Shown here: positions 2,443 to 4,698 of the stretch, in pieces
Numbering within the stretch: the first letter of the stretch is position 1
Layout: each line of letters begins with the position of its first letter
The notes under the pieces: model-generated
What the model was told of the DNA's origin: nothing
Seen by the model: only the letters and a program-made list of their open reading frames with translations
Database searches by the model: none
Made by a program: the position numbers and the translations under genes
IMG/VR virus record: IMGVR_UViG_3300002161_000368
Span: 1-46,845 of that record
DNA: 46,845 nt
Reading direction: 5' to 3' (one strand)
Source: a virus

Positions 2443-2628
2443 CTACTTAGGATTGTCTGTTTTATAAAAGCCAGAACCGTTGAACTTAATACCAAATGAA
2501 CCATAGTGCCTTTGTAATCTTTTACCACATTCATTGCATATATAGTTTGGTTCAACAGAAGTTATAGATCTTTCTTTAGAGACAATCTCTTCTGGCGAAC
2601 ACTCGCATTTGTATTCATAAATAGGCAT
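2443..2628 (-). CDS. FmdB-like zinc ribbon protein
   Basis: This 61-residue protein begins MPIYEYKCEC and continues with CNEC, ending in a GSGFYKTD motif. That pattern is the hallmark of the FmdB putative regulatory zinc-ribbon family; many members have this size. Two Cys pairs (C8/C10 and C31/C34) are the likely zinc ligands; the first pair is CxC where CxxC is more usual. The start overlaps the thermonuclease stop (TAATG), indicating translational coupling in one mRNA. Family members are often annotated as regulatory on weak evidence, so the molecular role in the phage is unknown. Confidence 0.8.
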   Translation of the reverse strand: MPIYEYKCECSPEEIVSKERSITSVEPNYICNECGKRLQRHYGSFGIKFNGSGFYKTDNPK

Positions 2629-3035
2629 TATTTACCGCTCTGTTTTCTCTTTTCGGCTAAGGCAACAAAATCTTTGACCTTAGTTTCTCCCATGTATCCC
2701 CACGCATAACCATCTTCAATCATTTGTTCATTAACAGATTTAGTGTTTCCGTCAAGATAAACCCAGCCAAGTATACGTCCGTACTTTTCAGAACTATCTG
2801 GTTTCTCTGTCTTTACTACAATATCTTTAGATTCTTTAAACTTAGACTTAAGATATTCTTTTGATTCTAGCCCCAATGTTTTTTCAAGCTTGTCTGTTGT
2901 TCTAGATTCTGGTGTATCTATTCCAGCAAGTCTTAGTCTTTGAGAATATGAAATGCTGAATCCAAGGTCAATGTCAACATCAATAGTATCTCCGTCCACT
3001 ATTTTTGTAACCTGCTTAACTCTATATTCAAACAT
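2628..3035 (-). CDS. Thermonuclease (SNase-family nuclease), cytoplasmic
   Basis: This 135-residue protein has the staphylococcal nuclease fold: VDGDT at 13-17, RLRLAGIDTPE at 33-43 and KYGRILG at 84-90. The catalytic set R35, E43 and R87 and metal ligand D40 are all present, so it should be an active Ca-dependent phosphodiesterase on DNA or RNA. It lacks the signal peptide of the secreted enzymes, so I infer action inside the host, perhaps in host nucleic acid degradation. The ribosome binding site AAGGAG lies 5 nt before the ATG. A structured leader precedes it. It is transcribed with the FmdB-like gene. Confidence 0.9.
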   Translation of the reverse strand: MFEYRVKQVTKIVDGDTIDVDIDLGFSISYSQRLRLAGIDTPESRTTDKLEKTLGLESKEYLKSKFKESKDIVVKTEKPDSSEKYGRILGWVYLDGNTKSVNEQMIEDGYAWGYMGETKVKDFVALAEKRKQSGK

Positions 3036-3055: not shown

Positions 3056-3141
3056 GAGCAGTTTAGCCACAATGCTCAGGTGGATCCTGCGGGTAGCGGC
3101 CCGCATATAGTCTGCGACTCCCCAGTGACGGGGTGCAGACT
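3056..3141 (-). ncRNA. Structured RNA leader with three hairpins and a possible pseudoknot
   Basis: The 118-nt gap between hsp20 and the thermonuclease is locally GC-rich. Read on the minus strand it has: P1, AGTCTGC/GCAGACT (3141-3135 with 3115-3109) enclosing CCCC/GGGG; P2, TGCGGG/CCCGCA (3105-3100 with 3093-3088), 6-nt loop; P3, CCAC/GTGG (3083-3080 with 3070-3067). The P3 loop contains GAGCA (3077-3073), complementary to TGCTC at 3060-3056, which would form an H-type pseudoknot. It ends 15 nt before the thermonuclease ribosome binding site. No U-tract follows any stem, so it is not a terminator. I do not recognise the RNA family; a riboswitch-like leader or a small RNA are both possible. 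Confidence 0.55.
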
Positions 3142-3153: not shown

Positions 3154-3579
3154 TTACTTGATTTTGATGGTCTTTGGCTTTTCCTCTTCAGGAACGACAC
3201 GCTCTAAATTAATAGTTAGCATACCATTTTCAACCTTTGCACCAGTAACCTCAATATATTCTCCAAGAGCAAATTCTCTTGTGAATTTACGAGTTGCAAT
3301 ACCCTTATGCACGAATTTTGCATCTTCTGTAATATCCTTAAGCTCTCCCTTTACGGTAAGAGTCTGATCCTTTACAGTGATTTCAATGTCTTCTTTTGCA
3401 AAACCCGCCACAGCAACTTCGATTAAAAATGTATCTTCGTCGTCTGTTTTGATTACGTTATAAGGTGGGTATGTTGAGTGTGATGCGTGGCTGTGAACTT
3501 TTGTAAGTCTATCTAGTTCACGATTAAAGCCAATAAAAAATGGATCCTTAAAAAGATCCAATGTGTATGATGTTACCAT
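3154..3579 (-). CDS. hsp20: Small heat shock protein (Hsp20 / alpha-crystallin family)
   Basis: This 141-residue protein has the class A (IbpA-like) sHSP pattern: a phenylalanine-containing N-terminal arm (FKDPFFIGF), YPPYNVIK at the start of the alpha-crystallin domain near residue 38, VAGFAKEDIEI, RKFTREFAL, then VENGMLTINLERVVPEEEKP and a C-terminal IKIK that fits the IxI dimer-groove anchor. It is an ATP-independent holdase for unfolded proteins. Hsp20 genes are known in cyanophages, where a role in virion assembly or scaffolding has been proposed; here the role is inferred. AAAGGAGG lies 6 nt before the ATG, and two inverted repeats occur in its leader. Confidence 0.92.
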   Translation of the reverse strand: MVTSYTLDLFKDPFFIGFNRELDRLTKVHSHASHSTYPPYNVIKTDDEDTFLIEVAVAGFAKEDIEITVKDQTLTVKGELKDITEDAKFVHKGIATRKFTREFALGEYIEVTGAKVENGMLTINLERVVPEEEKPKTIKIK

Positions 3580-3660: not shown

Positions 3661-4698
3661 TTATTCGCCAGAGGAAACTTCAGCTATTTTAGACTTAGCA
3701 ATAGCTAAAACTGGGCCAACTAATGGGGAATACCCAGTGGCCACGGCCTCTTTATTGCACTTGGTTACAGCAAAAGACAAGAACTCTTTTACTGCATCGT
3801 TTTTCGGTGTGCTTTCCTTAAATGCAACGATATAACTGAATGCCGATACGTTATACGATAAAGGGTTTTTATTGTTATAGTTTGCTTTTATGAGTCCGTT
3901 AGCCAATGGCTCAAAATCACTAAGGAATTGAGATGCTGCTTTTGAAGTAGGAGCAGTAAATTTACCAGCACCATTTTCAATTAGGGCAAGTTTTAATCCG
4001 CCAGCAAATGAGGACTCTGCGTATGTTATTACGCCATTCATTTGGCGGGCTATCATTACGACTCCATGAGATCCTGAACCTGCCTGAGAGCTAAAAGACA
4101 ACGTTCCAGGGTAAGCGCTCTTAAAGTCTTTATTGCCTGCCTTAGTCCAAATTGTTGGAGCTACTGCATTTAAATACTCTGTGAATATCTGGCTTGTCCC
4201 AGATCCGTCTGCACGATAAGCAATTCGAATAGCTGTTGCTGGAATCTTTGGCTTGACTCCCTTAATTGTGTTATCTGAAATAATAGACTTATGATTCCAT
4301 TTTGTAATCTTACCTGCAAAAATATTTGCCAACGTTTCCTTTTTAAGCTGTATAGGCTTTGAATATCCATCAAGTCTATAGATGACTCCAATGGGGCCAG
4401 CAATAAAAGGAACGTAGACTATACCAGATGGCTTTAGTTCTCCTGGATTATATGGAGTATCTGTTCCAGCAAAGTCGATGATCTTATTGTTTAATTGTGA
4501 TCTACCAGCACCAGATCCTAATGAAGAATAGGTTATGGTGTTTCCAGTTGCCTTGGCATAACTAATTCTGCATGCGTCAAGGTAATTTGATATAAATGAT
4601 GATCCCGATCCAACTACATCTTCTGATGCGGTGGCGGGATGTGATGTAAAGATACTAGCAACCAATGCTAGCGTTATGACTATAGATTTATTTCTCAT
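3661..4698 (-). CDS. pstS: Phosphate-binding protein PstS
   Basis: This 345-residue protein is a PstS-type periplasmic binding protein for phosphate. A Sec signal peptide spans residues 1 to about 24, with likely cleavage after ATA or ATAS. The mature N-terminus has VGSGSSF, then YSSLGSGAGRSQL and DFAGTDTPY, which form the phosphate pocket, and later YRADGSGTSQIFTEYL. There is no lipobox cysteine, whereas PstS of Gram-positive hosts is usually a lipoprotein. The protein would be released or held by other means. Phage pstS genes are known from cyanophages and are thought to aid phosphate uptake by infected cells. No ribosome binding site is visible; the -10 lies 9 nt from the ATG. No pstCAB genes are in the window. 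Confidence 0.93.
   Translation of the reverse strand: MRNKSIVITLALVASIFTSHPATASEDVVGSGSSFISNYLDACRISYAKATGNTITYSSLGSGAGRSQLNNKIIDFAGTDTPYNPGELKPSGIVYVPFIAGPIGVIYRLDGYSKPIQLKKETLANIFAGKITKWNHKSIISDNTIKGVKPKIPATAIRIAYRADGSGTSQIFTEYLNAVAPTIWTKAGNKDFKSAYPGTLSFSSQAGSGSHGVVMIARQMNGVITYAESSFAGGLKLALIENGAGKFTAPTSKAASQFLSDFEPLANGLIKANYNNKNPLSYNVSAFSYIVAFKESTPKNDAVKEFLSFAVTKCNKEAVATGYSPLVGPVLAIAKSKIAEVSSGE

Follow-up and report, generated by a model that had tools for sequence, protein, structure and literature searches.

The window analysed here is the whole of virus record IMGVR_UViG_3300002161_000368 from IMG/VR (46,845 bases), and our subject is a short structured RNA that lies in it between an hsp20 gene and a thermonuclease (SNase) gene. 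The hsp20 gene (3154-3579, Pfam PF00011, E 3.3e-20) lies upstream of this leader and the SNase gene (2628-3035, PF00565, E 5.5e-17) downstream of it; an FmdB-like zinc-ribbon gene (2443-2628, PF09723 at E 1.2e-5, under the family cut-off) overlaps the SNase stop codon. Because hsp20, SNase and the FmdB-like gene follow one another in this order on the minus strand, the structured RNA was read on that strand, and a plus-strand reading of the hairpins was dropped for the same reason. A sequence-only reading of this DNA had described three hairpins, one of them closed into a likely pseudoknot, and took them for an RNA switch or small RNA controlling the nuclease and FmdB-like genes, or for a processed transcript after hsp20.

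From the hsp20 stop codon onward, the minus strand carries a TATAAT box, hairpin A, hairpin B, an H-type pseudoknot (hereafter the knot), a Shine-Dalgarno (SD) sequence and the SNase ATG. The TATAAT box (3150-3145) is a predicted -10-like promoter hexamer with no clear -35 element, and hairpin A (3141-3109, AGTCTGC-A-CCCC-GTCACT-GGGG-AGTC-GCAGACT) is the predicted 5' end of a transcript started at this adjacent box. It is followed by hairpin B (3105-3088, TGCGGG-CCGCTA-CCCGCA) and by the knot itself (3083-3056, CCAC-CT-GAGCA-TT-GTGG-CTAAAC-TGCTC). In the knot, stem 1 pairs CCAC (3083-3080) with GTGG (3070-3067), and stem 2 pairs GAGCA (3077-3073) with TGCTC (3060-3056), the loop-to-3' contact that had been proposed; the loops are CT (loop 1, 3079-3078), TT (loop 2, 3072-3071) and CTAAAC (loop 3, 3066-3061). 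From the end of the knot it is 10 nucleotides (nt) to the SD sequence (AAGGAG, 3045-3040) and 20 nt to the ATG; the earlier reading had counted 15 nt to the ribosome binding site. Its remark on local composition was correct: the 86 nt reach 60% GC in a window that averages 38%, and 0.006% of stretches of that length are as rich. Pseudoknot-free folding gave z = -3.06 on the minus strand (1 of 200 shuffles equal) and z = -2.72 on the plus strand; as the plus strand scored nearly as low, folding energy by itself offers modest evidence. The knot is single-copy in the window, where a loose pseudoknot finder returned one further candidate, all-AT, against a shuffle mean of 1.6. Rfam 15 held no match to the window leader at E<=5, and a MALAT1 match within hsp20 (E 4.6) was set aside as chance.

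The decisive evidence was comparative, and it confirmed that the window pseudoknot is a real structured RNA forming the last part of the SNase leader. An SNase protein search of IMG/VR gave 80 loci, and 39 of them carry the pseudoknot before SNase; the gene upstream is hsp20 in 33 of these and a different one in 6. The distance from the 3' end of the knot to the SNase start codon is always 18-21 nt in these 39 loci, and the interval from upstream stop to SNase start spans 50-151 nt. Across 19 aligned leaders, 95.7% of cells are paired (37-47% in slid structures), and two-sided change is seen at eight pairs, where shuffles give 3.6 +/- 1.0 (0 of 500 reaching the observed value). This covariation is good for hairpin B, in which four of six pairs show two-sided changes, and for stem 1 of the knot. 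The TATAAT box is the same in all 19 leaders, and the SD sequence is conserved. Hairpin A is conserved nearly letter for letter, with its four upper pairs constant and two basal pairs changed on both sides, and thus draws its support from conservation, not covariation. Relatives that lack the structure, which by the earlier reading would speak against it, turned up in part for the hairpins: both are missing in L049 and L052 and missing or replaced in L026 and L034. The pseudoknot withstood this check. Since relatives without hairpins A and B keep the knot, we regard the knot as the core of the leader.

Several further features were noted around these leaders. Modules are shuffled among relatives, and an extra module made of AGTCGGGGGAGACAGCGACT plus AAATAACTG stands between hairpin B and the pseudoknot in L001, L003, L004, L013, L021, L024 and L034. 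In L012, hsp20 is fused to the final leader bases, with promoter, hairpins and knot deleted, either by natural deletion or by assembly error. The hsp20 gene of the window has a leader of its own (3648-3600, minus strand), in which a TATAAT box stands directly before a strong hairpin (ATATACGGGTCGTCC...GGCCCGTATAT); this is a predicted 5'-terminal hairpin and resembles hairpin A. Directly upstream of hsp20 lies a gene for a PstS-like periplasmic substrate-binding protein (3661-4698, minus strand, PF12849, E 4.9e-39).

The knot is not confined to SNase leaders. Searching phages with the leader brought it up in Roseobacter phage SIO1 and in phiEF-1.1, a lactobacillus phage, and in a pattern scan of viral contigs nearly all of the matches listed have the flanking stem 1, which the pattern did not demand. 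Two further scans of viral contigs demanded altered stem-2 positions; in the second, stem 2 was fully complementary in 75 of 76 matches with a stem 1 of 4 bp or more, against 9 of 29 matches with a stem 1 shorter than 3 bp. Compensated versions of stem 2 include GGACA/TGTCC, GAACA/TGTTC, GGTCA/TGACC, GGCCA/TGGCC and GACCA/TGGTC. In a set of 120 distinct sequences, chosen by pattern at fixed spacing and with no pairing filter, 97.0% of cells are paired (28-35% in slid structures) and covariation reached 0.569 against 0.164 when shuffled (0 of 500). These data establish the knot as a new phage RNA element, an H-type pseudoknot of 24-28 nt with the consensus NNNC-CU-GRNCA-H-GNNN-n(0-9)AAAC-UGNYC and loops of 2, 1-2 and about 6 nt; the constancy of CCTG, CA and AAACTG in it is partly imposed by the search patterns, with exceptions at L248 (GAGTA/TACTC) and in phage RB11-B (GATGA/TCATC). 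The 8-9 nt that follow are poor in G, at 3-9% at first and 14% by the ninth base.

Controls on reversed input were clean. A pseudoknot finder gave 353 distinct matches, a few of them false, in these pattern-chosen loci and none on reversed sequences, and scans of whole records gave 74 matches against none for the reversed pattern. Three classes of match were discarded: antisense phage tRNAs that mimic the pattern with a 3-nt loop 2 (L085, L086, L118, L129, L135, L149, L164 and L201), most first matches of a genome-collection scan, which fail the stem 1 test and look like chance, and first-scan matches in T4-like coliphages, where the A-rich 3' side alone matched.

Knots occur in phages of several bacterial phyla. 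Named carriers include Siovirus, Lentibacter, lactobacillus, staphylococcus, streptococcus and thermophilic D6E phages, as well as Moorella, Corynebacterium, Cellulosimicrobium, Nostoc, Synechococcus and Vibrio phages, crAss-like phages and gut Heliusvirales; E. coli Carltongylesvirus phages match with an imperfect stem 1, and one Microviridae record matches by sequence. For some of these named records, the assignment is by short similarity rather than by a record-by-record look at stem 1. Whole-record scans found one to seven knots per phage, often grouped within about 5 kb. One exact 24-mer is present in 60 contigs and makes up 3 of the 145 matches listed in the first scan, from which we roughly estimate that IMG/VR may hold a few thousand GAGCA-type knots.

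To describe where knots sit, we surveyed 314 copies, SNase loci excluded. Half of them (156 copies, 50%) start 2-12 nt after the stop codon of an open reading frame, against 3.7% of random positions, and 80 (25%) have a start codon with an SD sequence within 40 nt, against 7.7%. An independent sample defined by one exact 24-mer behaved the same way: 38 of 54 copies (70%, random 4.1%) lie 2-12 nt after a stop, with a mode of exactly 5 nt, and in 46 of the 54 the sequence ahead of the 24-mer, which was left unconstrained, supplies a stem 1 of 4 bp or more. Among 232 stop-anchored cases, the spacing from stop to knot has a sharp lower edge at 5 nt (1 case at 3 nt, 6 at 4, 80 at 5, 44 at 6 and 23 at 7). 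The edge of a terminating ribosome lies about 5 nt past the stop codon, so the knot apparently sits at the shortest distance at which it would escape unfolding. Genes directly upstream of knots include DUF932, Hsp20, gp2.5-type single-stranded DNA-binding protein (SSB), ribonucleotide reductase and capsid protein genes, and the downstream genes are diverse. Nearly all copies sit between co-directional genes, with few divergent or convergent cases; the knot is thus mostly intercistronic, and we dismissed an element that marks the start or end of operons.

Some knots stand just before an RNA at which the transcript would be cut. Of the 314 copies, 28 have a sense tRNA within 25 nt. In all, 29 sense tRNAs, of ten kinds, follow a knot at 3-33 nt, all but one of them by 14 nt; a single tRNA ends ahead of a knot. 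On Polynucleobacter contig L248 (7750-6900, minus strand), two successive gene borders have the order stop, knot, type III hammerhead ribozyme, SD sequence, gene; the first of these knots carries the compensatory stem 2 mentioned above, and Rfam recognises both hammerheads as type III, one above and one below its cut-off. A scan for a knot followed by CTGATGA gave 23 loci, 8 of which pass a strict hammerhead structure test. With L248 and L335 added, 10 of 25 loci with CTGATGA downstream pass, against none of 21 with CTGATGA upstream, and further hammerheads are convincing by eye at L571, L574, L577, L578, L583 and L585. The predicted hammerhead cuts fall 5, 6, 8, 13 or 19-21 nt past the knot, and at these hammerhead loci an upstream stop could be measured for 17 knots, 14 of which sit 4-9 nt after it. 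A cut by RNase P or by a hammerhead downstream of the knot means that the upstream RNA alone keeps the knot, at its 3' end. In the gut Heliusvirales phages L326 and L332 (2529-2686), the DUF2800 RNA of Rfam (RF02960) starts directly after the knot and may itself be a processing signal. In four lactobacillus phages (L083, L258, L281 and L323), the knot is followed by a shared element, approximately TATGC-nnnATC-nATGCGGG-agccga-CCCGC, that precedes the scaffold gene or the next SD sequence and is not in Rfam.

This position and cut-site geometry fit a 3' element that blocks RNases. The explanation we favour, as the simplest one to cover the cases together, is that the knot is a boundary element shielding mRNA 3' ends from exonucleases, and we put its probability at roughly 0.45. 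Reasoning from sequence, we envisage that the knot, placed 5 nt past the stop and hence as near as a terminating ribosome permits, would remain folded while the upstream gene is translated. The agent that then cuts the transcript just 3' of the knot would be RNase P where a tRNA follows, a hammerhead where one is present or, as we infer, a host endonuclease acting on the G-poor tail. Such a cut would leave the upstream mRNA with a knotted 3' end, a compact barrier to exonucleases that could stabilise the message. Small pseudoknots added to the 3' end of prime editing guide RNAs guard against degradation (PMC9456398), and an earlier proposal has phage hammerheads cleaving the long transcripts of phages into mRNAs of gene length (PMC3088659). 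A barrier to 5'-3' exonucleases only was rejected: we found no cut sites upstream of knots, and knots are carried by Vibrio and Polynucleobacter phages, whose hosts are expected to be without RNase J.

A number of observations weigh against the boundary-element reading. No near stop or recognised near downstream feature accompanies 108 of the 314 copies, PaP3, a hammerhead phage, has no knot before its hammerhead, and some lactobacillus phages place an intrinsic terminator immediately before the knot, an arrangement that would not be expected of a 3' cap. Other points tie the knot to the gene that follows: the SNase knots hold their 18-21 nt to the start codon under different upstream genes at different distances, knots precede scaffold or capsid genes in Firmicutes head operons (lactobacillus, staphylococcus, streptococcus and D6E phages) regardless of what lies upstream, and SSB genes are preceded by a knot in two cyanophages, S-CRM01 and S-EIVl. 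It is this downstream tie in the SNase family and the head operons, together with SSB cases that recall the gene 32 operator of phage T4, that holds our estimate for the boundary element where it is.

These ties to the following gene, with the six SNase loci whose upstream gene differs, the G-poor tail and the excess of start codons within 40 nt, favour an alternative in which the knot is a 5'-leader element that stabilises or regulates the following mRNA, for instance as the point where a phage RNA-binding protein nucleates. This has a precedent in the T4 gene 32 leader (PMC3014915). We nevertheless consider it doubtful, given that anchoring to the upstream stop is stronger than to the downstream start (13-fold against 3-fold), that cuts at tRNAs and hammerheads would separate the knot from the downstream RNA, and that the downstream genes are too varied for a single autoregulator. 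In the window itself, the knot could cap a read-through hsp20 mRNA, could serve the SNase mRNA, or could do both. The suggestion of a switch for the nuclease and FmdB-like genes holds to the extent that the knot stays with SNase, and fails on specificity, as the same 24-28 nt knot stands by dozens of unrelated genes and before tRNAs and hammerheads; the other suggestion, of a processed transcript after hsp20, comes nearer to the general pattern of stop, knot and cleavage.

The wall at 5 nt, so close to the edge of a terminating ribosome, could also mean that the knot acts on the machinery, either as a roadblock that keeps post-termination ribosomes out of downstream ribosome binding sites, tRNAs and ribozymes or as a nascent-RNA signal to RNA polymerase or Rho at the end of translation. 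Knots do adjoin untranslated structured RNAs, and a universal target would suit the wide host range. Intrinsic terminators, however, are not enriched downstream (8 downstream and 7 upstream, all copies), on which ground antitermination at such terminators was also rejected, and knots in leaders with their own promoter, as in the window, have no ribosome just upstream; we therefore judge a ribosome or polymerase role unlikely. Nor is the knot an intrinsic terminator itself: its 3' flank is G-poor but mixed in A, C and U, and the first base is A in 66%.

A metabolite riboswitch controlling the nuclease and FmdB genes would suit the leader position, with its promoter-like box, three structured elements and SD sequence, but is very improbable, as the same knot occurs at many unrelated genes, the loops (2, 1-2 and about 6 nt) are very short with no obvious room for a ligand pocket, and no riboswitch family was matched. 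Weakest of all is a recoding signal for read-through or frameshifting at the upstream stop: the 5-8 nt spacing and compact geometry do resemble those of viral recoding pseudoknots, but the three frames past the stop stay open for medians of only 11.5, 13 and 5 codons (232 cases) and tRNAs follow many knots, so that this explanation is disfavoured and largely refuted.

Comparison with known systems turned up relatives in form but no identity. The T4 gene 32 operator is the translational operator of gp32. In T4, T2 and RB69 it too is an H-type pseudoknot, placed in the leader of a phage mRNA and succeeded by an unstructured A/U-rich tract and a ribosome binding site; of our knots, only those of the two cyanophages above match it in location, before SSB genes. 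In contrast, it lies about 67 nt upstream of the start of one gene in T4-like coliphages (PMC3014915), whereas knots go with many different genes, are anchored to stop codons and have tRNAs and hammerheads as neighbours. STAXI (RF01728) is likewise a small pseudoknot near SSB and antirestriction genes, but it is found in Enterobacteriales, in tandem arrays of two or three units with UUCG loops (PMC2864571); the window leader and a 3 kb stretch with four knots gave no RF01728 match, and our knots are mostly single and without UUCG. Luteovirus-type frameshifting pseudoknots, such as that of beet western yellows virus, are compact H-type folds with a 2-nt loop 1, a 1-nt junction and an A-rich loop 3, a geometry like that of the knot; unlike them, the knots have no open frame past the stop. 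Two other systems would resemble the knot in their way of working. The intercistronic REP/BIME hairpins of E. coli may shield upstream mRNA from 3'-5' decay; these are palindromic hairpins, whereas the knot is a phage-borne pseudoknot with a far wider host range. In the MALAT1 3' triple helix with mascRNA, RNase P cuts before a tRNA-like element and so makes a knotted 3' end, but MALAT1 is a human long non-coding RNA of unrelated sequence. From phage hammerheads the knot is distinct, standing 5-21 nt before their cut site, and most knots have no hammerhead.

In Rfam 15, the 3 kb holding four knots gave no knot match at E<=10, and there was no match at the gathering threshold over knots of named phages and other loci. 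Our literature search found no paper describing the motif; a 2023 catalogue of about ten thousand viral RNA candidates may contain it as an unnamed entry. The structured RNA was thus rightly called unrecognised, and its stems covary very strongly across phages: a knot with overwhelming covariation in two stems is absent from Rfam.

On a broader view, which we hold with somewhat less than even confidence, phages of many phyla would share an mRNA 3'-end module consisting of a stop codon, 5 nt and a 27-nt triplex-like pseudoknot, followed by a cut from RNase P (at tRNAs), a hammerhead or a host nuclease. If true, this would be the bacterial-virus counterpart of MALAT1-type 3'-end capping, splitting polycistronic phage RNA into separate decay units. 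The knot may also offer a minimal natural structure for the protection of RNA ends in biotechnology, and it suggests what phage hammerheads, so far without an explanation, may be for. Together, the fixed 5-nt spacing from the stop and the pairing with tRNAs and hammerheads provide a testable answer to how phages may protect and partition their mRNAs.
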